Positions 3,942 through 35,462 of a stretch of 35,462 bases of DNA are shown here, piece by piece. Each line of letters begins with the position of its first letter. The first letter of the stretch is position 1. The stretch comes from Crystallibacter permensis (GTDB lineage: Bacteria; Actinomycetota; Actinomycetes; Actinomycetales; Micrococcaceae), in NCBI RefSeq assembly GCF_025960875.1, contig NZ_JAODLR010000031.1, positions 1 through 35,462 on the forward strand, written 5' to 3'. Position numbers and translations under genes: made by a program. Under the pieces are notes generated by a model. That model was not told where the DNA came from. It saw only the letters and a list, made by a program, of their open reading frames with translations, and made no database searches.

Positions 3942-4873
3942 TGGATAACCAGGCGCAGGCAGGACTGTACGCTTCCGTTGCCCAGGAGGCCGCCGCCGTC
4001 GTTATCCGGCGCTATTCCACCTCATTCTCGCTGGCGACGCGGCTGCTGGAAAGGCCCGTACGCCGCCATGTGGAAAACATCTACGCGCTGGTCCGGATCG
4101 CCGATGAGTGCGTCGACGGGGCCTGCGCGGGATCCGGGTCCGCGCCGGAAGCAGTACGCAGCTGCCTGGACAAGCTCGAGCAGGAAACCTTGGACGCGGT
4201 GGCCGTTTGCTACAGCTCCAACCTGGTGGTCCACGCCTTCTCGATCACTGCGCGCGAAGTGGGAATCGGGGCGGAGCTGATCCGCCCGTTCTTTGCCTCC
4301 ATGCGCGCGGATCTGGAGCAGACCGGGCACACCCGCGACAGCTTCGAAGCGTATATCTACGGCTCGGCCGAGGTAGTGGGACTGATGTGCGTGCGCGCCT
4401 TCCTGCTCGGCCGCCCCGTTGATGCCGAGCATTTGGCAAGGCTCGACGGCGGTGCCCGCCGCTTGGGTGCCGCGTTCCAGAAGGTGAATTTCCTGCGCGA
4501 TCTCTCCGACGATTACCAGGACCTGGGGCGCAGCTACTTCCCCGGTGTCACGGTCGGCGAATTCAGCGACGCCCAGAAGGATGCCTTGCTGGCCGACATC
4601 GAAGCGGACCTGGCAGCTGCCGCAGCGGTCATTCCTCAGCTGCCCGCGGGCAGTCGGACTGCCGTCGCCGCCGTGCACGCATTGTTCGCAGAGTTGGCCA
4701 GGCGGCTGCGCGCCGTCCCGGCCCGGGAACTGCTGGCGCGGCGCGTGCGCGTGCCGGACGCGGTCAAGCTGCGGCTGGTGGCGTCCGCCTGGTACTCACA
4801 GCAAGGACGCTCCGGCGCTTGGAAGCTGCGGCCGGTGCCAGTGCTAGCCGCGCTGCACAGGAGCAGCCGGTGA
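3941..4873 (+). CDS. crtB: Phytoene synthase
   Basis: This squalene/phytoene synthase-family enzyme (310 residues) condenses two GGPP head to head to 15-cis-phytoene. The two Asp-rich motifs are present: DECVD at residues 55-59 and RDLSDDYQD at about 186-194. SFSLATRLL near the N-terminus is also typical. Start choice: AAAGGAG at 3928-3934 gives 6 nt spacing to ATG 3941. ATG 3938 (MM start, overlapping the crtE stop as ATGA) is possible but would leave only 3 nt. Either way translation is coupled to crtE. The stop overlaps the GTG start of crtI. Confidence 0.95.
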   Translation: MDNQAQAGLYASVAQEAAAVVIRRYSTSFSLATRLLERPVRRHVENIYALVRIADECVDGACAGSGSAPEAVRSCLDKLEQETLDAVAVCYSSNLVVHAFSITAREVGIGAELIRPFFASMRADLEQTGHTRDSFEAYIYGSAEVVGLMCVRAFLLGRPVDAEHLARLDGGARRLGAAFQKVNFLRDLSDDYQDLGRSYFPGVTVGEFSDAQKDALLADIEADLAAAAAVIPQLPAGSRTAVAAVHALFAELARRLRAVPARELLARRVRVPDAVKLRLVASAWYSQQGRSGAWKLRPVPVLAALHRSSR

Positions 4874-26360: not shown

Positions 26361-27059
26361 CTAGGTCGAGCGTCCGCGGGACGTCCAGCCTTGCTCATGC
26401 AGGCGTTCGAATCCGTCCAACAGCAGGTCCAGCGCAAACTCGAACTCGAACTGATCGTCGCAGCCCTGGCCGACGACCGATTCGTCGTCGTGGTCCGCCC
26501 TCATCGCGATCTCCATGACATGCGGATACTTCTCGGCCATCGCGTGGAGCATGGCCGGCGGGATTTCCGCCGCGGCACCCGCGGAGTCGTCGAACACTTC
26601 CTGGGTGAAGCCCCACATCCGGCTGCCCATGGCATGCATGACGTGATGGGTCAGATCCACCGAAAGACCGCCGGCCCGGAACATTCCGATCATCGCGTCC
26701 ATATACTCCAGCACCACCGCCGACTTGTTGGTCCGCGACTCGATCACATGGCGGGCCCACGGATGCCGGAGCAAGATCTGCCGCGCGGCGAGGACCCGCT
26801 GCCGGACGGCGCTCTTCCAGTCGTCGCCGCTGGCCCCGGTGTCGATCTCGCCAACGATGACGTCGACCATGCCGTCCAACAGCTCTTCCTTGTTCGCGAC
26901 GTGCTTGTACAGCGCCATCGGCACCACGCCCAGCTGCTGGGCAAGCTTGCGCATGCTCAGCGACTCGACTCCTGACTCGTCCGCAAGAACGACGGCGGCA
27001 CTCAGCACACGTTCCCGGCTCAGGGGAGTGCGGCGCACCGTTTCCGTCTGCTGGGCCAT
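26361..27059 (-). CDS. TetR-family transcriptional regulator
   Basis: A 232-residue TetR-like repressor. The N-terminal DNA-binding domain is LSRERVLSAAVVLADESGVESLSMRKLAQQLGVVPMALYKHVANKEELLDGMVDVIVGEI (about residues 13-72), of the TetR class with a TetR_C_1-type ligand domain (RQILLRHPWARHVIESR, EYMDAMIGMFRAGGLSVDLTHHVMHAMGSRMWGF). The ATG start at 27059 has a purine-rich AAAGAAGGGGG stretch upstream. It is divergent from the DUF2306 gene, and two palindromes lie between them, the usual layout for a repressor acting on itself and its neighbour. The ligand is unknown. Confidence 0.92.
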   Translation of the reverse strand: MAQQTETVRRTPLSRERVLSAAVVLADESGVESLSMRKLAQQLGVVPMALYKHVANKEELLDGMVDVIVGEIDTGASGDDWKSAVRQRVLAARQILLRHPWARHVIESRTNKSAVVLEYMDAMIGMFRAGGLSVDLTHHVMHAMGSRMWGFTQEVFDDSAGAAAEIPPAMLHAMAEKYPHVMEIAMRADHDDESVVGQGCDDQFEFEFALDLLLDGFERLHEQGWTSRGRST

Positions 27060-27092: not shown

Positions 27093-27148
27093 TTGACAAG
27101 TGTACGCCGTACACCTACCTTTAGTTGCATCAGGTGTACACCGTACAC
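27093..27148. promoter_or_regulatory. Promoter with two TetR-type operators
   Basis: GTGTACGCCGTACAC (27100-27114) is a perfect 15-bp palindrome and GTGTACACCGTACAC (27134-27148) is a second copy with one mismatch; their centres are 34 bp apart. The first lies in the 17-bp spacer between TTGACA (27093-27098) and TACCTT (27116-27121), a strong promoter toward the DUF2306 gene, so repressor binding would block it directly. Confidence 0.75.
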
Positions 27149-27199
27149 CAAAGGCACAATCGGACCGCTTCTCCCGGCCCATCCAGCGAAGGACTCGAA

Positions 27200-27970
27200 A
27201 TGAACGCCAGCAGAAAGACTGCAACTGTGGTGATGGGGACGGAAACAAAGGAAAGTCCCCGCGGCCGTCGAGGCGGTGGAGGCCAGTGGCTCGTGCCCGC
27301 CGCATTGATCTTCGTCAGCCTTATCCCGGTGTTCTTCGGGACGGCCCGGCTGGCTGAACTGATGGAAGGCGCCGAGGTAACGCCGGCCAACCACAGGTTC
27401 TTCGACTCACCTATCCCGGTGCTGATCCACATTCCCGCCGCCATCGTGTACTCCCTAGTCGGGGCCTTCCAATTCGTTCCCTCGCTCCGTCGCGGCAAGC
27501 GCGGCAAGCGCGGCAAGCGCAGTTGGCACCGGGTGGCCGGGAAGGTCTTGATCCCCGCCGGCCTGCTTGTTGCCCTGTCCGGCCTGTGGATGGCGGTCTT
27601 CTACGATCTTCCCCCCAGCGACGGCGAGCTGCTACTCGTGTTTCGGCTGGTCTTCGGCTCGGCAATGGTGGCCAGCATCGTCATGGGCATTCTCGCGATC
27701 CGGCGCCGGGACTTCGCCGCACACGGCGCGTGGATGGCACGCGGCTACGCCATCGGCATTGCCGCGGGAACCCAGGCACTCGTCAGCATCCCCTGGCTTC
27801 TCCTCGTCGGCCCGGCCGACGTGCTGACCCGCGCACTGCTCCTCGGTTCAGCATGGGTAATCAACCTAGCGGTCGCCGAGTACTTCATCCACCGCCGCAC
27901 CCGTCGGCCCGCGCGAACGAACCATCCATCCGGCTCCCTTGCCAGGCCGGCGGCAACAGCTTCCCTCTGA
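27200..27970 (+). CDS. DUF2306 membrane protein
   Basis: A 256-residue protein with six or seven hydrophobic helices. FFDSPIPVLIHIPAAIVYSLVGAFQFVPSLRR, SWHRVAGKVLIPAGLLVALSGLWMAVFY and AAHGAWMARGYAIGIAAGTQ match the DUF2306 family, whose conserved His and Trp residues in helices (HRVAGK, AHGAWMARGYA) resemble heme-binding membrane proteins; no function is established. ATG 27200 is used because AAGGA lies 6 nt upstream. Residues about 98-108 (RGKRGKRGKR) come from a 9-bp tandem repeat at about 27491-27520 in a cytoplasmic loop. It is the likely target of the divergent TetR protein. Confidence 0.85.
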   Translation: MNASRKTATVVMGTETKESPRGRRGGGGQWLVPAALIFVSLIPVFFGTARLAELMEGAEVTPANHRFFDSPIPVLIHIPAAIVYSLVGAFQFVPSLRRGKRGKRGKRSWHRVAGKVLIPAGLLVALSGLWMAVFYDLPPSDGELLLVFRLVFGSAMVASIVMGILAIRRRDFAAHGAWMARGYAIGIAAGTQALVSIPWLLLVGPADVLTRALLLGSAWVINLAVAEYFIHRRTRRPARTNHPSGSLARPAATASL

Positions 27971-28094: not shown

Positions 28095-28150
28095 TAGGGT
28101 GATGCCCGGGACACGCCCGGGTATCGACGACTGCGATCAGGTCGTCGATA
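28095..28150 (+). promoter_or_regulatory. GH3 gene leader with two inverted repeats
   Basis: CCCGGG occurs at 28105-28110 and 28116-28121. TATCGACGAC (28122-28131) and GTCGTCGATA (28141-28150) are a perfect 10-bp inverted repeat with a 9-nt spacer. TAGGGT (28095-28100) is a -10 candidate just upstream, so the repeats would lie at the start of the transcript, as an operator or as a stable 5' hairpin. The rest of 27987-28209 shows no gene. Confidence 0.5.
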
Positions 28151-28209
28151 GATCGTGGGGAGCGCGCCGCAGTGGACGCCTCTCCCAGTCCGTTCAAAGG
28201 AGAACTTCG

Positions 28210-30546
28210 TTGATCACAGCCAATTCGAGCGTGAGACGACGGCGAGCCATGGTGGGCCTCGCCGTTGCGCTGCCGCTGACCTTCATCCTGGGCGCCGGCG
28301 CCGTAGCCGCTGCGCCCCAGTCGACGAATGAGGGCAATCACGGAAAGCCCGCTGCGCTGGAGACGCGTGCCAAGAAGATCATCACGGTCAAGGGGCGCCA
28401 GTTCAAGGATCTGAATGGCAACGGCAAGCTTGACGTCTACGAGGACTGGCGAAAGCCGGTCGAGGCTCGAGTTGCAGATCTCGTCGGGCAGATGACCCTT
28501 GAGGAGAAGGCCGGGCTCATGCTCATCGATACGGTGAACGCCTCGTGCGACCCGGAGACTGGCAAGTTCGGCACCGTACCCGACACGGCCGTCGACTACA
28601 TCGACACCCAGCAGATGCACCGGTTCATCTTCCGCAACCTCGTCGACAGCGGCGAGCGCGGTGCCTGCCAGCCCAGCGGCGGCGGCTTCGGGACCAACGT
28701 GCGCGTCACCCCGGGCGAAGCTGCGACGTTCATGAACGAGATCCAGCAGCTGAGCGAGGCCACGCGCCTCGGCATCCCCGTACTGTACAAGTCGAACGCC
28801 CGCAACCACATCGACCCCCAGGCCAGGGCCGGCATCAACGAGGCATCCGGCGCATTCTCTGCGTTCCCCAAGGAAGCAGGCATCGCTGCCGCTGCCCTCG
28901 GCGAGCAGGCGAAGACCACCGGCGAGGCGACCGATGGCGACATGTCCGTCGTCGAGGAGTTCGCCGAAGTCATGGGCGAGGAATGGTCCTCCATCGGCCT
29001 GCGCGGCATGTACGGCTACATGGCCGACCTGTCGACCGAGCCGCGCTGGTACCGTACGCACGAGACGTTCACAGAGGACGCCGACCTGGGCGCGAACATC
29101 ATGGGTGAGCTCGTGGAGTCGCTCCAGGGTGAGGTCGGCAAGGACGGCAACTCCCTGAGCGCAGAGACCGACGTCGCGCTCACCATGAAGCACTTCCCGG
29201 GCGGCGGCCCGCAGGAGCTCGGCCTCGACCCGCACTACGCCTTCGGCAAGGCGCAGGTCTACCCCGGGGATGCCTTCGGCTACCACCTCAAGCCCTTCGA
29301 GGCCGCCATCGAGGCCGGAGTCTCGTCGATCATGCCGTACTACGGTGTGCCGGTCGACGTGACGTACGAGGGTGTGGACTACGACGAGGTCGGCATGGCC
29401 TTCTCCGACCAGATCGTCAACGGCCTGCTGCGCGACCAGATGGGCTTCGACGGCTACGTCAACTCCGATACCGGCATCATCAACGACCGTGCCTGGGGCC
29501 TCGAGGACGCTACCGTTCCTGAGCGCGTCGCCGCAGCCATCAACGGTGGCACGGACACCCTCTCGGGGTTCAACGAGGTGCAGACGATCATCGACCTCGT
29601 CAACACCGGCCTTGTGACCGAAGACCGCGTGGACCTCGCCGCAGAGCGCCTTCTGGCCCCGATGTTCGAGATGGGCCTGTTCGAGGACCCGTACGTCGAC
29701 CCGTCGATCGCCGACTCGACCGTCGGCAGCGACGAGAACCGTGAGGTCGCTCTCGATCTGCAGCGCAAGTCCACCGTGCTCCTGCAGAACCGGGAGATCG
29801 ACAGCGACTCCGTGCTCCCGCTCGACGGCGGCGAGACCGTGTACGTGCTCGGCAACGTCGACGCCGAGGAAGTTGCGGCCTCCGGCCATGACGTCATCGA
29901 TGGCAACGACCCGGCCGAGCAGCGCACTGCTGCGGACGCCGACGTCGCGCTCATCTCGATGACCGCGCGGAACGTCAACACCGGCAGCTACGTCAGCAAC
30001 GACCCGGCCACGGGCCTCAACCCCGAGCACATCAATCCGAGCGCCATCGAGGGCCTCGAAGGCCTCGACGGGAAGAGCCCGTACGGCGCGGCGGACGCAT
30101 GCGTGGTCAACGGCGGTGGCGCGTGCACCGACGACGGGCTGCGCTTCGGCGGCTCCTTCCCGTGGGAGTCGAGCACGCTCGACTTCACCGGCATGAAGGA
30201 CGCCGAGTCGTGGGAGGTCACCCCGTCGCTCGACGCGGTGCAGCAGGTGATGACCGAGGTCGGCACCGAGAACACTGTCCTCGACATCTACTTCCGCCAG
30301 CCGTTCGTGCTCGACGAGGCCAGCGGCCTGCGCGACGCCGGTGCGATCCTCGCCAACTTCGGCAACTCCACCGCGGCGCTCATGGACATCGTCTCGGGCG
30401 AGTTCAACCCGCAGGGCCGCATGCCCTTCGCGTTGGCCGGAACCCGTGAGGCGATTCTCCAGCAGAACAGCGACACTCCGGGCTATGACGAGACCGACGA
30501 CGGGGCGCTCTTCCCCTACGGTTTCGGCCTCAGCTACAAGGAGTAA
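28210..30546 (+). CDS. Secreted glycoside hydrolase family 3 beta-glucosidase-like protein
   Basis: A 778-residue GH3 enzyme starting at TTG 28210 with AAGGAG 7 nt upstream. RRRRAMVGLAVALPLTFILGAGAVAAAPQ is a signal peptide. DLNGNGKLDVYEDWR (about residues 70-85) is an EF-hand-like calcium loop typical of one GH3 branch. The TIM barrel follows, with KHFPGGGPQ and the nucleophile region GFDGYVNSDTG (Asp420), then the GH3 C-terminal alpha/beta sandwich (VALDLQRKSTVLLQN) to FPYGFGLSYKE. It should release terminal glucose or a similar sugar outside the cell. It is monocistronic. Its codon use seems more uniformly GTC/CTC/GAC than its neighbours, a possible sign of transfer. Confidence 0.93.
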   Translation: MITANSSVRRRRAMVGLAVALPLTFILGAGAVAAAPQSTNEGNHGKPAALETRAKKIITVKGRQFKDLNGNGKLDVYEDWRKPVEARVADLVGQMTLEEKAGLMLIDTVNASCDPETGKFGTVPDTAVDYIDTQQMHRFIFRNLVDSGERGACQPSGGGFGTNVRVTPGEAATFMNEIQQLSEATRLGIPVLYKSNARNHIDPQARAGINEASGAFSAFPKEAGIAAAALGEQAKTTGEATDGDMSVVEEFAEVMGEEWSSIGLRGMYGYMADLSTEPRWYRTHETFTEDADLGANIMGELVESLQGEVGKDGNSLSAETDVALTMKHFPGGGPQELGLDPHYAFGKAQVYPGDAFGYHLKPFEAAIEAGVSSIMPYYGVPVDVTYEGVDYDEVGMAFSDQIVNGLLRDQMGFDGYVNSDTGIINDRAWGLEDATVPERVAAAINGGTDTLSGFNEVQTIIDLVNTGLVTEDRVDLAAERLLAPMFEMGLFEDPYVDPSIADSTVGSDENREVALDLQRKSTVLLQNREIDSDSVLPLDGGETVYVLGNVDAEEVAASGHDVIDGNDPAEQRTAADADVALISMTARNVNTGSYVSNDPATGLNPEHINPSAIEGLEGLDGKSPYGAADACVVNGGGACTDDGLRFGGSFPWESSTLDFTGMKDAESWEVTPSLDAVQQVMTEVGTENTVLDIYFRQPFVLDEASGLRDAGAILANFGNSTAALMDIVSGEFNPQGRMPFALAGTREAILQQNSDTPGYDETDDGALFPYGFGLSYKE

Positions 30547-30602: not shown

Positions 30603-30738
30603 ATCACCATTGGGTCCGGGCACATGCGTCGACAAGCGCCCCGTGCGCGAAGTTGAGGAATCGAGTCGGCGGACAGATGTCCGGTAAGTGCCTTGGCACT
30701 TTAACTGTGGTGGTACCGAGCGCGCCTATACTTGGGAC
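30603..30738 (+). promoter_or_regulatory. Promoter region of the LAL regulator gene
   Basis: TATACT (30727-30732) ends 6 nt before ATG 30739 and there is no ribosome binding site, indicating a leaderless transcript. ATCACCAT at 30603, followed by GCGTC and ACAAGCGC, weakly resembles the element conserved upstream of the two downstream membrane-protein genes and is at a similar distance from the start (136 bp). The promoter is well supported; the operator copy is tentative. Confidence 0.4.
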
Positions 30739-33438
30739 ATGCCGACGCCGGTGCTGGCTACAAAACTCCATGTTCCCGCATCCCGCCCTCAGATCGTTCC
30801 GCGGCCCCGGCTGCTTGAGCGCCTGAACGAGGGACTGGACTCGGGCCGCAAGCTCACGCTTGCTTGCGCCCCCGCAGGCTTCGGCAAGACCACACTGCTC
30901 AGCGAATGGATCGCTCACAGCAGGCGACGCAACCCGGAAGTACGAGTCGCCTGGCTGTCCCTGGATGAAGGGGACAAGGATCCATCCCGCTTCCTGACGT
31001 ATGTTGTTGCGGCGCTGCAGGGTATCGACGCGGACATTGGTCCAGAGACGATGAGCCTTTTGCCCAATCCCCAGGTGCTGCCGGTTGAGCCGGCCCTGAC
31101 CGCTCTCATCAACGACGTGTCGCGGGTGGGCAGAGAGATCATCCTCGTACTCGATGACTACCATGCGATCCGCGCGCGGCCGATCCATGAGGCCCTCAAT
31201 TTTCTGCTCGACCATCTCCCGCCGCAGTTGCATCTGGCAGTTGCCAGCCGTTCCGATCCGCCTCTCTCCCTGGCCCGCCTGCGAAGCCGGGGCGAACTGA
31301 CCGAACTGCGCGCCGCCGACCTGCGCTTCACTGCCGACGAAGCCGCGGACTTCCTCAACCGGGTCATGGGCCTGGGCCTTTCGACCGATGACATCGCTGC
31401 CCTTGAAACCCGCACCGAGGGCTGGATCGCCGGCTTACAACTGGCCGCCCTCTCCATGCGTGATCACAAAGACATAGCTGGTTTCATCCGCGCGTTCACC
31501 GGCAGCCACCGCTTCGTCATCGACTACCTGATGGAGGAGGTGTTGCAGCACCAGGCCGCTGATGTCCGCAGCTTTCTGCTGAACACCTCCGTTCTCGACC
31601 GCCTGACAGGTCCCCTGTGTGAAGCCGTCACCGGGTTGGACGGCGGAAGCGGAATGCTGGAGAACCTGGAGCGCGACAACCTGTTCGTCGTGCCACTGGA
31701 CGACCGGCGGCAGTGGTATCGCTATCATCACCTCTTCGCCGACGTGCTCCGGTCTCGCATCCTAAAGGAGCAGCCCGACCGGGTACCAGCGCTGCATCAC
31801 ATCGCCAGCGAGTGGTACGAGCGAAATGACCTGCCGGAAGATGCGGTGAAGCACGCGCTGGCTGCCGAGGACTTCGGACGGGCGGCGGACTTAATGGAAT
31901 GGGCCTTGCCGGCAATCCGACGTACCCGACAGGATGCGGTGCTGCTCGGCTGGTTGAAGACGCTCCCGGACGAAGTGGTCCGACGCAGGCCGGTGCTCAG
32001 CGTCTTCTGCGCCTGGATGCTCCTAGTCTCCGGCGACCTCGAAGCGGTCGAGTCCCGGCTGCGGGACGCCGAAAGGAGGCTGGCTTCCGGGGCCGGCACG
32101 TCGGTCAACGGAGAAGAGTTTCGAACGTTACCGGTAACCATCGCCATCTACCGGGCGTCGCTGGCTCAGGCGCTGGGTGATGCGGCAGGCACCGCGGAAC
32201 ATGCCCGGCAGGCGCTTGAGCTGGCTCAGCCAGGCGACTATCTCTCCCACGGCGCGGCGGCCGGATTCCTGGGACTGGCATCGTGGGCTAGCGGAGACCT
32301 CGAGACAGCCCAGCGAACTTTTTCAGATGCCGTGACGAGCCTGCACGCGGCCGGCAACATAGCCGACGAACTGGGCAGCACGATTGTGCTGTCGGACATG
32401 TGGATTGTGCGAGGCCGACTGCACGAGGCACGTCGGATCTACGAGCGGGCCCTGCAGTTGGCGACAGCACAGGGTGAACCGGTTCCACAGTCACTGGCCG
32501 ACCTGCACGTGGGGATCGGTGAGCTTCAGTGCGAGCTCGGCGATCTGGAAGCCGCCAAGCAACATTTGAAGACCAGCACGGCGCTGGGGGCACGTGCTTC
32601 GCTGACGGAAAACCGGTACCGGTGGTTCGTTGCAATGGCTCGGGTCAGCGAGATCGAAGGAGACCCAGACGGCGCGATTGAGTTGCTGGGACAAGCCGAG
32701 CGCCTATACCTGCGGGGATTCCTGCCGGAGGTGCGCCCGATTAGTGCGTTAAAGGCACGGATCTGGATCGCTCAGGGAAGGTTTGCTGAAGCAGAGCGGT
32801 GGGCGAACGAGCACCGCCTGACCGCTGGGGATGACGTCAGGTACCTGCTCGAATTCGGGCACATCACCCTGGCGAGACTGCGCATCGCCCAGTACAAGGT
32901 CAACCGGCAGGGAAGCGAGCTCCATGAGGCCGTGGAGTTGCTGGGCCGCATGCTGGAAGCGGCAGAGGCGGGGGGACGCACTGGAAGCGTGAACGAGATC
33001 CTGGTCTTGCAGGCCCTCGCTCACGAGGCGCAGGGGCAGATGCGGCGGGCTCTGGTGCCGTTGAAACGCGTTTTGGCCTTGGCCGAGCCGGAAGGTTATG
33101 TCCGCCTTTTTATTGATGGAGGTACCCCCATGGCGGTATTGCTGGATGAGGCCGCGCGACAGGGAATCTTCACGGACTATGTTCGTCGTCTACGCCGCGC
33201 CTTCGCGAAATCTCAAGGCGAAAGTCCCAACATTCAGCCTATCGCGGAACCATTGAGCGAACGCGAACTGCAAGTGCTCAAGCTGCTGATTACGGGGTTG
33301 AGCGGGCCGGAGATTGCGCGCCAACTTTTCGTTTCGGTGAACACCTTGCGCACGCACACCAAGCACATCTTTGCAAAGCTCGAAGTGAATAGCCGTGCCG
33401 CGGCCGTCCGCCGCGCAGAAGAGCAGGGCTTGGTGTAG
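30739..33438 (+). CDS. LuxR-family ATP-binding regulator, MalT-like (LAL type)
   Basis: A large (899-residue) STAND-type transcriptional regulator. The N-terminal NTPase has the Walker A APAGFGKTT (residues 44-52) and Walker B LVLDDYH (136-142). The middle (about 390-800) is helical and TPR/MalT-like (ASEWYERNDLPEDAVKHALAAEDFGRAADLME, repeated Ala/Leu helices). The C-terminal LuxR HTH is LSERELQVLKLLITGLSGPEIARQLFVSVNTLRTHTKHIFAKLEVNSRAAAVRRAEEQGLV (about 838-899). Such proteins bind an inducer and ATP, oligomerise and activate transcription. Starts at ATG 30739, leaderless. The two membrane-protein genes downstream carry a shared upstream element and are its likeliest targets (inference). 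Confidence 0.93.
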   Translation: MPTPVLATKLHVPASRPQIVPRPRLLERLNEGLDSGRKLTLACAPAGFGKTTLLSEWIAHSRRRNPEVRVAWLSLDEGDKDPSRFLTYVVAALQGIDADIGPETMSLLPNPQVLPVEPALTALINDVSRVGREIILVLDDYHAIRARPIHEALNFLLDHLPPQLHLAVASRSDPPLSLARLRSRGELTELRAADLRFTADEAADFLNRVMGLGLSTDDIAALETRTEGWIAGLQLAALSMRDHKDIAGFIRAFTGSHRFVIDYLMEEVLQHQAADVRSFLLNTSVLDRLTGPLCEAVTGLDGGSGMLENLERDNLFVVPLDDRRQWYRYHHLFADVLRSRILKEQPDRVPALHHIASEWYERNDLPEDAVKHALAAEDFGRAADLMEWALPAIRRTRQDAVLLGWLKTLPDEVVRRRPVLSVFCAWMLLVSGDLEAVESRLRDAERRLASGAGTSVNGEEFRTLPVTIAIYRASLAQALGDAAGTAEHARQALELAQPGDYLSHGAAAGFLGLASWASGDLETAQRTFSDAVTSLHAAGNIADELGSTIVLSDMWIVRGRLHEARRIYERALQLATAQGEPVPQSLADLHVGIGELQCELGDLEAAKQHLKTSTALGARASLTENRYRWFVAMARVSEIEGDPDGAIELLGQAERLYLRGFLPEVRPISALKARIWIAQGRFAEAERWANEHRLTAGDDVRYLLEFGHITLARLRIAQYKVNRQGSELHEAVELLGRMLEAAEAGGRTGSVNEILVLQALAHEAQGQMRRALVPLKRVLALAEPEGYVRLFIDGGTPMAVLLDEAARQGIFTDYVRRLRRAFAKSQGESPNIQPIAEPLSERELQVLKLLITGLSGPEIARQLFVSVNTLRTHTKHIFAKLEVNSRAAAVRRAEEQGLV

Positions 33439-33467
33439 CGACCCAACAATCGTCGGTCACCCCGTGT

Positions 33468-33522
33468 ATCACCACGGGTGGTGATGACGCGTCACCACAC
33501 GCTTCCGTAGATTCTAGTTGTC
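33468..33522 (+). promoter_or_regulatory. Conserved 55-bp element, copy A, with perfect inverted repeat
   Basis: ATCACCAC (33468-33475) and GTGGTGAT (33478-33485) form a perfect 8-bp inverted repeat with a 2-bp centre, followed by GTCACCACAC (33491-33500) and GCTTCCGTAGATTCT. The block aligns without gaps to 34480-34534 (40 of 55 positions identical by hand count). It lies 133 bp upstream of the membrane-protein gene at 33601. Confidence 0.7.
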
Positions 33523-33600
33523 TTCGGCACCAGCGATGGGCCGTGACGCTTGTTATAGCACTCGTTATTTCGAGCCTTACCCAATAGACAAGAGCCTCAG

Positions 33601-34239
33601 ATGCCGTCCCGAACCCAGATATTTTTACCTGCAGTACTCGTCAAGATCTTTGCCGTTGCCGGATTTCTCTCCGCAGCCATATTGCTGGTGAATGCCGCTA
33701 AGCGGGCCGGACTCATCCCTACGTCGCCTTTCACCCAGCTAGTTGCACCCGTTGCCCAACTCGCCGCTATCGGTCTGGTGATCGGAATCTATATGGTGAT
33801 CTCCAGGAAAGCTGGCTTGCTGGGAGCCTTAGGTGCGATGCTCTCCGTAATGTCGCTGGCCGGCCTCGTCGGGGTCGAATTCGTCCTGAACCTTGTCTTT
33901 CCTTACATTGATTCGGGTGTGATTGCAGCGCTGCGTACTGGCCCGCTTGGTATCGCCCTGACAGTGGTCTCGATGCTGTTCCTCCTCGGTACCGTCGTCT
34001 TCATGTCGGCGCTGTGGCGAACCTCCGGGGTACCTAAGGGCGCGGTCGTCCTCTACACCGCGAGTGCCATTCCCATCGCAATGCGTGTTGTCTTTCCGGA
34101 AACTGTTCTGCAGTTGGGTCTAGTCTGCCTGGCCGTTGCGATCATTTGGCTTTCCACGTGGTTGCTTCAGAACGTCCCTCGCGAGACCGCCGACCGGACA
34201 TCGGTTCGAAATCCGGCCACAGGGGCGATTGCCGGTTAA
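33601..34239 (+). CDS. Multi-pass membrane protein, function unknown
   Basis: A 212-residue protein with about six hydrophobic helices (near residues 8-30, 45-65, 72-98, 112-135, 145-162 and 165-185). I do not recognise a named domain with confidence; the layout recalls DUF4386-like proteins. It resembles the product of the gene at 34579: both have a GxxxGIYxxxxxxxGLLGxxGxxL block after helix 2 and a GPxxxxL..VxxxLxLG block in the second half, so the two are probably distant paralogues. The start lacks a clear ribosome binding site (AGAGCCTC). It follows the LAL regulator by 162 bp and carries element A upstream. Confidence 0.75.
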   Translation: MPSRTQIFLPAVLVKIFAVAGFLSAAILLVNAAKRAGLIPTSPFTQLVAPVAQLAAIGLVIGIYMVISRKAGLLGALGAMLSVMSLAGLVGVEFVLNLVFPYIDSGVIAALRTGPLGIALTVVSMLFLLGTVVFMSALWRTSGVPKGAVVLYTASAIPIAMRVVFPETVLQLGLVCLAVAIIWLSTWLLQNVPRETADRTSVRNPATGAIAG

Positions 34240-34361
34240 CGCCATAGTCAGGAGTTGTGGTGCGGCAGAGCGCCCTTGCTCGGCAGTTTTCCAGATGACC
34301 TGCAGCGGAGAGGAGACGTCCCACGGTTGCGGTTAGGGAATTGGGTGAGGGTAACAAGGTA

Positions 34362-34396
34362 GCCGGTTACGGAAGAAGACCCCTCCCGTAACCGGC
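34362..34396 (+). terminator. Hairpin after the first membrane-protein gene
   Basis: GCCGGTTACGG (34362-34372) and CCGTAACCGGC (34386-34396) are a perfect 11-bp inverted repeat with a 13-nt loop, 123 bp after the stop codon. AGGGTTGTG follows rather than a T tract. Confidence 0.55.
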
Positions 34397-34479
34397 AGGG
34401 TTGTGATCCGCGGTTGTTCTAGCCCGTCCTCCGCGCGCCGGGGACGAGTCTGTTCCAGCGGACGTCCATCACCACATCA

Positions 34480-34534
34480 ATCACCACATGTGGGGACGCC
34501 GTGTCATCACATGCCTCTGTAGCTTCTGAGTATC
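34480..34534 (+). promoter_or_regulatory. Conserved 55-bp element, copy B
   Basis: It starts ATCACCACATGTGG and continues through GTGTCATCACATGCC and TCTGTAGCTTCTG. It aligns without gaps to copy A at 33468-33522. An additional ATCACCAC lies 12 bp upstream (34468-34475). The element is 99 bp upstream of ATG 34579. Conservation across two intergenic regions, stronger than expected for unconstrained DNA, points to a regulator-binding site plus promoter. Confidence 0.7.
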
Positions 34535-34578: not shown

Positions 34579-35277
34579 ATGAACATCACAACCTCCAAGC
34601 TCACCCGGGCCGCCGGTCTGTGCGCCATGCTGGCAGGGCTGATTTACATCATCAGGCAACCCCTTCATCCGTTGTTCGACGTTTCCGCCGTCAACGGCAG
34701 CAACTGGGCGATTATGGGTTACCTGACCCTAGGCATGTCAGTACTGGGGCTGGCGGGCGTGACCGGAATCTACCTCCGGCAGGTCAAAGAAACCGGTTTG
34801 CTCGGCCTGATCGGGTATCTGCTGTTCGGTTCATGGTTTGTGCTCCTGACGGCTGTCATCTTCGCGCAAACCCTCATCATGCCGCCATTGGCCGCCGAGT
34901 CGCCGCAGTTCGTCAACAGTTTCCTGGTGATTTTCGGCGGCTCCGGCGGCACGGGCGGCAACGTTGATCTGGGGGTCCTAGGGACGATGGGTCCGGTGTC
35001 ATTCGTGCTCTATGTGCTTGGCGGCCTGCTGCTGGGTATTGCAATCTTTCGTGCCGGCATCCTTTCGCGCTGGGCCGCTGCCCTCTTGGTCGTCGGGATG
35101 GTCTTAACCCCTCTGGCCTCGGTATTTCCACAGACGCGCGGCAGTATTTTCGCCGTACCTGTCGGACTGGCTCTTGTCTGGCTGGGATACTCGCTCTGGT
35201 CCGAACAGCGACGGAATGCAGCGCGTCCCGCGACCGGCATGCAAAGCCCCAAGCTCAACCAAACCCTGGCCGTTTGA
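34579..35277 (+). CDS. Multi-pass membrane protein, paralogue-like to the 33601 product
   Basis: A 232-residue protein with six or seven hydrophobic helices (about residues 8-25, 46-66, 74-102, 133-152, 160-178 and 190-205). ATG 34579 is selected because AAGGAG lies 7 nt upstream. LAGVTGIYLRQVKETGLLGLIGYLLFGSWFVLLTAVIFAQTLIMPPLAA parallels the corresponding segment of the preceding gene, and GPVSFVLYVLGGLLLGIAIFRAG parallels its second half. A Gly-rich loop (FGGSGGTGGNVDLG, about 120-133) is specific to this copy. No function is established. Element B upstream suggests that it is co-regulated with the 33601 gene. Confidence 0.78.
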   Translation: MNITTSKLTRAAGLCAMLAGLIYIIRQPLHPLFDVSAVNGSNWAIMGYLTLGMSVLGLAGVTGIYLRQVKETGLLGLIGYLLFGSWFVLLTAVIFAQTLIMPPLAAESPQFVNSFLVIFGGSGGTGGNVDLGVLGTMGPVSFVLYVLGGLLLGIAIFRAGILSRWAAALLVVGMVLTPLASVFPQTRGSIFAVPVGLALVWLGYSLWSEQRRNAARPATGMQSPKLNQTLAV

Positions 35278-35297
35278 AGGCCCGAAGGGGAGCCGTC

Positions 35298-35462
35298 GTG
35301 GATAAGCGGCGTTTCAACGAGGCAGTGAAACCTGACCCTGATGAAAACCCAGCGGTGGCAAGGGCGACTAGGAGGGCGCTGAACAAGGGGCAATTTTGGG
35401 CCGTGGGGTTCGCTTTCGTGCCCTTTCCGGGGCCTTGGGCGGCGCGCTGGGGGGTCTCCATT
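35298..35462 (+). CDS. Partial hypothetical protein (N-terminus only)
   Basis: A GTG at 35298, with GGGGAG 5 nt upstream, opens a frame of 55 codons that leaves the window: a basic/acidic N-terminus (MDKRRFNEAVKPDPDENPAVAR...) followed by a possible membrane segment starting FWAVGFAFVPFPGPWAARWG. It lies 20 bp after the preceding gene and may be co-transcribed. The protein is not recognised, and an opposite-strand frame also exists here, so the call is tentative. Confidence 0.45.
   Translation, partial: MDKRRFNEAVKPDPDENPAVARATRRALNKGQFWAVGFAFVPFPGPWAARWGVSI

Follow-up and report, generated by a model that had tools for sequence, protein, structure and literature searches.

A four-heptamer element before membrane-protein genes as the candidate operator-promoter of a MalT-like LAL regulator in Crystallibacter permensis and its relatives

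Introduction

In Crystallibacter permensis two genes for predicted membrane proteins, here called memA and memB, lie behind the gene of a LAL (MalT-like, large ATP-binding LuxR-family) regulator and each is preceded by a similar stretch of DNA, which raises the question of what this stretch is, which protein recognises it and why it stands before both genes. A sequence-only reading of the window (the whole contig NZ_JAODLR010000031.1, 35,462 nucleotides, forward strand) had proposed that a promoter-plus-gene unit was duplicated, with the operator kept while the proteins diverged, and that the adjacent regulator binds the operator.

LAL regulators are described as poorly studied in the part of the literature drawn on here (PMC3282765). 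The operators reported for them in excerpted sources are direct repeats (MalT), direct together with inverted repeats (TpdR) and a palindrome (Actinoplanes; SCO6993) (PMC7567727, PMC6099782, PMC9628970), and for the LAL SCO6993 the excerpt states that a consensus site could not be provided (PMC9628970). In PimR, which has no LuxR HTH, the available text has the heptamers bound by the SARP part (PMC5930380).

Results

Sequence and geometry of the element

The 55-bp stretches at 33468-33522 and 34480-34534 align without gaps and are identical at 40 of 55 positions, as had been counted by hand; in 2,000 dinucleotide shuffles of both intergenic regions the best 55-mer match was 33 (mean 26.7), against 40 for the real pair. 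The perfect ATCACCAC/GTGGTGAT inverted repeat of copy A and the extra upstream ATCACCAC of copy B are both present as first described, and the upstream site also occurs in copy A, as GTCACCCC at 33456-33463, in the same register as in copy B. The full unit measures 62 bp in both copies, with identical 12- and 23-bp spacings. TCACCAC-like heptamers stand at element positions 2, 14 and 37, an inverted heptamer at positions 23-29 completes a 7-2-7 palindrome, and a TAGNTT -10-like box occupies positions 53-58 at equal distance in both copies.

Copy A (33456..33517, plus strand) is composed of heptamer 1, TCACCCC (33457..33463, plus strand), heptamers 2 and 3 as the palindrome TCACCAC-GG-GTGGTGA (33469..33484), heptamer 4, TCACCAC (33492..33498, plus strand), and the -10-like box TAGATT (33508..33513, plus strand). 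The corresponding parts of copy B (34468..34529, plus strand) are TCACCAC (34469..34475, plus strand), TCACCAC-AT-GTGGGGA (34481..34496), TCATCAC (34504..34510, plus strand) and TAGCTT (34520..34525, plus strand). With R1, a sequence-only model of the element trained on the window and 15 loci of the family, copies A and B score 48.4 and 51.6 bits, both being members of the training set. No third copy was found in the 4.95-Mb own genome, either with a pattern allowing up to 2 mismatches or with R1 at E<=0.01, and the element region contains no full sigma-70 consensus promoter. Columns 53, 54 and 58 of the element (T, A and T) are invariant among the letters of the 88 elements described below.

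The regulator and the membrane-protein genes

The regulator gene (30739..33438, plus strand, ATG at 30739) encodes 899 amino acids, within the LAL size of about 800-950, and its product matches Pfam TPR_MalT (1.6e-62) and a C-terminal GerE/LuxR HTH (1.5e-16), which bears out its earlier assignment to the LAL group. A Walker A-like APAGFGKTT, as an N-terminal NTPase should have, can be read in the sequence; the matches of Pfam AAA models all fell below their cut-offs. The best PDB relative is MalT (8bob, 6.7e-58 over LAL residues 10-426) and a related HTH structure is 1je8; with the NCBIfam MalT model NF003420 the protein reaches 435 bits against a cut-off of 537, that is, below the level of a MalT equivalog. 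PADLOC matches were confined to the HTH end. The LAL queries comprised 30727-33435, their N end being four residues longer than the 899-residue gene product.

The gene memA (33601..34239, plus strand) encodes 212 and memB (34579..35277, plus strand; start kept in relatives) 232 amino acids, both predicted helical membrane proteins. Neither matched a Pfam or NCBIfam family above cut-off, memA giving one sub-threshold Pfam match (E=0.077). AlphaFold2 models (mean pLDDT 77.5 for memA and 78.6 for memB) are helical bundles in both cases, with six long helices predicted for memB and five for memA, one of which (43-99) would be long enough for two membrane passes. The models gave no PDB match at E<=0.001, the profiles of memB and of the small-ORF protein described below no PDB relative at E<=1, and no memB relative was confirmed in viral contigs. 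Since the window is the whole contig and ends 185 bp past memB (35278-35462), further genes of the module may be out of view. A search for the small ORF in the own genome with A8, run without a positive control, gave no match.

A DUF2306 membrane gene (27125-27970) with a divergent TetR-type regulator gene (26361-27059) lies 3-4 kb before the LAL gene in the window, and R1 found no element at it. A GH3 glycoside hydrolase gene (28099-30546) stands between DUF2306 and LAL; in locus L073 DUF2306 comes directly before the LAL, with no GH3 gene between.

Conservation within the family

Of 197 family genomes, 16 have a memB relative and four a memA relative, the own genome being counted in both. 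As the sequence-only reading required, the element is conserved in relatives that keep these genes: all 15 loci examined (L028-L042) have an upstream LAL (49-61% identity), and the element is found in the gap behind it. The earlier choice of the adjacent LAL as the likeliest protein to bind the element is supported. Within the 15 loci inspected, the 300 bp ahead of the LAL gene held no such element. The 17 elements of the family loci and the window could be aligned over 62 positions, four rows having single-base gaps. In a separate comparison, of 17 elements from 9 sequences, the mean pairwise identity is 0.70 within the element, compared with 0.29 and 0.32 in the 58-bp flanks. Heptamer 4 is lost in L037, and in L029 and L030 the element is followed by the small ORF, a DUF4386 gene and memA, in this order. 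Two distant memB matches (L043, L044) had no LAL within the 13 kb examined, and their genomes (G179, G168) gave neither an R1 match nor a LAL at E<=1e-150.

R1 yields 19 strong sites (E<=6.6e-9) in 17 of the 197 genomes, a count that is not independent because 16 of these 17 genomes, the own included, supplied its training sequences; weak partial matches in G103 (E 0.009) and at a second site of G031 (E 0.0017) were left uncounted. A LAL at E<=1e-150 is present in 16 of the 197, all of them among the 17 element genomes, and in the seventeenth, G113, the LAL is split over two frames (L040). Independent of the training are G181, where the LAL and a small-ORF/DUF4386 pair without memA or memB flank the element, and the second site of G171, which precedes a memA broken by an insertion with integrase-core ORFs. 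In L028 (11342-14749) memA is broken by about 2.9 kb with integrase-core (transposase-like) ORFs, and the middle and 3' parts of the element remain.

The palindrome might also act as a transcribed RNA hairpin, an attenuator or leader, which we regard as highly improbable. Some paired changes occur in the palindrome, and the covariation score of 0.270 exceeds the shuffled mean of 0.098; against this, one inner pair is unpaired in 8 of 17 sequences, a hairpin gives no reason for the direct repeats formed by heptamers 1 and 4, and the palindrome lies upstream of the conserved -10-like box. On these three grounds the hairpin was disfavoured as an account of the element.

Genes preceded by the element

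For a wider view 88 elements were collected from 78 sources, namely the window, L028-L042, L068 and 61 of 80 memB loci, and they derive from 72 of these. The set omits L095, L106 and L129, whose genomes are already represented by L031, L032 and L034; L085, which appears to be nearly a duplicate of L087; and 15 loci with no R1 match. In 84 of the 88 cases the element precedes, in sense orientation, memB (67), the small ORF (9) or memA (8); for memB, the distance to the start has a median of 51 bp and lies within 44-60 bp in 62 of 67 cases. The remaining four precede a DUF2306 gene (L077) and three alike genes (L076, L078, L087), of which the one examined, in L076, is a DUF805 gene (Pfam 3.7e-19). 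L077 has three separate elements, before memA, DUF2306 and memB, while L072 has one before memA and none before memB. The LAL is in tandem upstream of 67 elements and divergent from seven, which lie between LAL and target gene; for 14 of the 88 no LAL was seen upstream in the locus.

The small-ORF protein recurs in many module loci (for example L030:7021-7278 and L068:6151-6414) with the core YEIRxxGHLDxRWxxWFDG...DGTT...DQAALHGLLxKVRDLG, and the members examined had no Pfam, NCBIfam or PDB match. In L128 and L138 the elements of memA and memB differ within the locus, that of memB being of another sub-type (TCACATC/GGGTGA), and memB is followed by a partial match to a second LuxR-type HTH; these loci perhaps contain two sub-regulons.

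The variety of targets bears on how the element came to stand before both memA and memB. From sequence the two proteins may be distant relatives, as the sequence-only reading had it: their profiles match collinearly (E=1.9e-4, probability 48%) and BLASTP gives E=0.006 over 47 residues, so their paralogy is weakly supported and stays unproven. The proposed copying of a whole promoter-plus-membrane-gene unit, with the operator kept and the proteins diverging, could draw on this collinear match and on the predicted structures, both helical bundles of about six helices and similar length. Nevertheless the match probability is low, memA and memB form separately conserved families, and the same element precedes DUF2306, DUF805 and small-ORF/DUF4386 genes, the DUF4386 profile being without significant similarity to memB or memA. 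Moreover, the window copies (0.72 identical) are no closer than copies across genomes and genes, which range from 0.55 to 1.00. Common control by one regulator suffices for a shared element, and thus the duplication is unnecessary; we consider it unlikely and, in view of the varied target genes and the identity range, rejected it as the source of the shared element.

Co-occurrence of element and LAL beyond the family

A motif search had been expected to place the element before homologous membrane genes near LAL regulators in the own and related genomes, and it is found again ahead of a limited number of membrane-protein genes in bacteria with such a LAL. In 396 Actinomycetota genomes R1 found 13 sites in 11 genomes at E<=1e-4, two being those of the window, one from a training genome and 10 from outside the family. 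Each of these 10 directly follows a LAL (40-66% identity) at a distance of 16-231 bp, two of the LALs being cut short in the contigs examined; eight of the sites precede the small ORF and two memB.

Among the best 80 of 174 memB profile relatives, 61 loci have element and LAL, 13 neither, four a LAL only and one the element only (Fisher p = 1.2e-10, phylogeny ignored); the eightieth, L117, was not searchable and lies outside the four classes. Partial or split LALs (e.g. L084, L103, L131, L140) were counted as LAL, L150 with an HTH match only was counted as without, L090 in the neither class has a partial LAL match, and in three of the 62 element-positive loci (L111, L113, L124) the R1 match is a weak match to the TCCCC form described below. 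With the LAL in the locus itself, 50 of 54 such loci carry the element, and 11 of the 12 element loci without a local LAL have one elsewhere in the genome, at 45-68% identity; in L085 the element is present and no LAL was found in its 3.1-Mb MAG. Conversely, a full LAL match was absent from 14 of the genomes searched, and 13 of these, that of L090 among them, lack the element. Four loci have a LAL and no R1 match at E<=0.01: in L110 and L131 the element is of the TCCCC form, and L080 and L102 show no element of 12/23 geometry. The loci with neither are mostly from Bacillota, L074 (Pseudonocardia) and L150 (Geodermatophilus) being actinobacterial.

These counts speak to a different origin of the association, in which another regulator binds the element, or the element is a special sigma-factor promoter, and the LAL is a neighbour carried along in a mobile module. 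Co-transfer alone could indeed give the adjacency, and a promoter-like -10 box, preceded by conserved bases, forms part of the element. Yet an element lacking a local LAL has one elsewhere in the genome in nearly every case, the element is missing from nearly every genome that lacks a full LAL, LAL and element stay constant while the cargo genes differ, and half-site and recognition helix change together, as described in the next section. We therefore hold this explanation to be quite improbable and retain the LAL as the candidate binding protein.

Half-site and recognition helix

In Chloroflexota loci the same 12/23 geometry is built from TCCCCAC half-sites, and the LALs of those loci have the recognition helix STVRT[HY]TK where most others have NTxRTH. 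In a scan of 89 LALs (threshold 27; 300 shuffles of one 430-bp stretch gave a mean of 21.7 and a maximum of 28) the TCCCC element was found beside six of the seven LALs with an STxRT[HY] helix, two of the seven having been found via that element, and beside none of the 82 others. Of these 82, 54 score as TCACC-like and 28 are below threshold or in no class, some of the 28 having R1 matches in which heptamer 1 is displaced by a single base. In L156, the seventh ST case, what looks like a shortened TCCCC element lies downstream of 4269, seemingly without heptamers 3 and 4; its genome (G210) also has an intact element at L113.

R2, a model of the TCCCC form, was run on 221 Chloroflexota genomes and yielded 5 sites, spread over 3 genomes. 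Two of these belong to the training set; the three new ones, in two genomes, lie beside (two) or a few kb from (one) an ST-helix LAL, and both LALs concerned belong to the seven ST cases already counted. As all ST cases are from Chloroflexota, a single switch, one event in one lineage, is possible. A Paenibacillus LAL (L155, genome of L108; reading frame marked with two stops) has the NT helix and a TCACC element, the one Bacillota case seen.

We think it rather probable that one LAL group, present in Actinomycetota, Chloroflexota and one Bacillota genome, forms a portable module that keeps the four-heptamer 12/23 operator, in which the half-site (TCACC, TCCCC, perhaps others) follows the recognition helix while the cargo genes are exchanged. 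If true, LAL recognition helices and the operators belonging to them would be linked by a readable code.

Downstream of LALs with a VKGH helix (L102 4569-4800 and from 9825; L162 from 4255) AACACTT-type repeats were noticed, an impression by reading; they are possibly a third operator class.

Discussion

For a LAL, genome comparison here yields a sharply defined putative operator of constant geometry, few targets and a possible switch of specificity, and the LAL, its targets, which belong to families without an assigned function, and its signal become directly testable in soil actinobacteria. We propose that the 62-bp element is very probably the operator-promoter of the LAL and that the LAL activates memA and memB from it, a proposal based on sequence comparison. 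In this mechanism the LAL, as a MalT-like STAND ATPase, would be activated by ATP and a signal and would oligomerise, and its C-terminal NarL/GerE-type HTH domains would occupy the four TCACCAC heptamers, laid out as one direct, one 7-2-7 palindrome and one direct near the -10 box. Bound in this way, the LAL could bring RNA polymerase to a promoter that has no -35 consensus and so switch on memA and memB, whose products we infer to serve a response of the membrane or envelope. In genomes other than the own, this pair of regulator and operator would drive memB, memA, DUF2306, DUF805 or small-ORF/DUF4386 genes as a sporadically distributed module.

The sign of the control deserves separate consideration, since the LAL may act at the element as a repressor and not as an activator. 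With heptamer 4 placed between positions -35 and -10, a protein bound there could stand in the way of the polymerase, and a LAL-type repressor, SCO6993, is reported in the excerpted source (PMC9628970). On the other hand, the absence of a sigma-70 consensus promoter suits an activated promoter, and MalT, IniR and TpdR are activators according to the portions cited (PMC7567727, PMC5760070, PMC6099782). The palindrome moreover ends about 35 bp ahead of where the -10-like box would place the transcription start, near the 34.4 nt reported between the 3' end of the palindrome and the start for an Actinoplanes activator (PMC7567727). Repression thus appears to us an unlikely alternative, and activation by the LAL is the reading that we follow below.

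The inverted heptamers of NarL sites have a 2-bp spacing. NarL sites resemble the present element in such inverted heptamers, as given in the text at hand (PMC6099782), and the HTH is related (PDB 1je8); NarL differs in being a two-component response regulator with another recognition sequence. E. coli and Klebsiella MalT share with the LAL the domain order ATPase-TPR-LuxR HTH, and the core GGA[TG]GA of the MalT box, which lies over the -35 region, resembles the half-site found here (PMC7567727, PMC9628970, both in part). MalT acts through direct-repeat boxes on maltose genes, whereas the LAL falls below the NCBIfam MalT cut-off, and in place of direct repeats of GGGGA[TG]GAGG, as described for MalT in the excerpt (PMC7567727), the element has four TCACCAC heptamers, two of them palindromic.

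A further comparison is with the Actinoplanes regulator ACSP50_3915, reported in the sections used here to activate via TCATCC-5nt-GGATGA over the -35 region (PMC7567727). Like the LAL it is actinobacterial and MalT-like, has a similar half-site palindrome and controls genes (a 51-gene region) other than maltose genes, but it combines a single palindrome with a clustered-gene regulon, in contrast to the 12/23 array of four heptamers (PMC7567727). TpdR of Rhodococcus jostii is likewise a LAL activator with direct and 7-nt inverted repeats around -35, and differs, in the same partial source, by its 15-nt repeat TnnAAnnGCGGAnTC and its catabolic target genes (PMC6099782).

The titles and abstracts on TCACCAC or LuxR-family operators or MalT-like regulons that we searched contained none on this module, and no literature joining DUF4386 or DUF2306 with LuxR was found. 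Accordingly, the early view of an uncharacterised regulator/membrane-protein system agrees with the literature searched, in which no description of it was found. The system is of a known kind, a LAL regulon, and what is new is the composite operator together with the uncharacterised membrane targets.

The IniR-iniBAC system of mycobacteria, examined by mutants, reporter and ChIP-seq according to the excerpt (PMC5760070), offers a further parallel, IniR being a MalT-like activator with one dedicated envelope-related target operon. Its target proteins are others (PMC5760070, in part): iniB/iniA/iniC-type genes stand there, whereas memA and memB match no Pfam or NCBIfam family. In L069, from a genome of the family, a partial element (4739-4772, 20 bits, second half and -10 box) precedes a gene that looks iniB-like by reading; downstream of it lies a dynamin-family gene, and LuxR-HTH and Hsp70-like genes are found on the upstream side.
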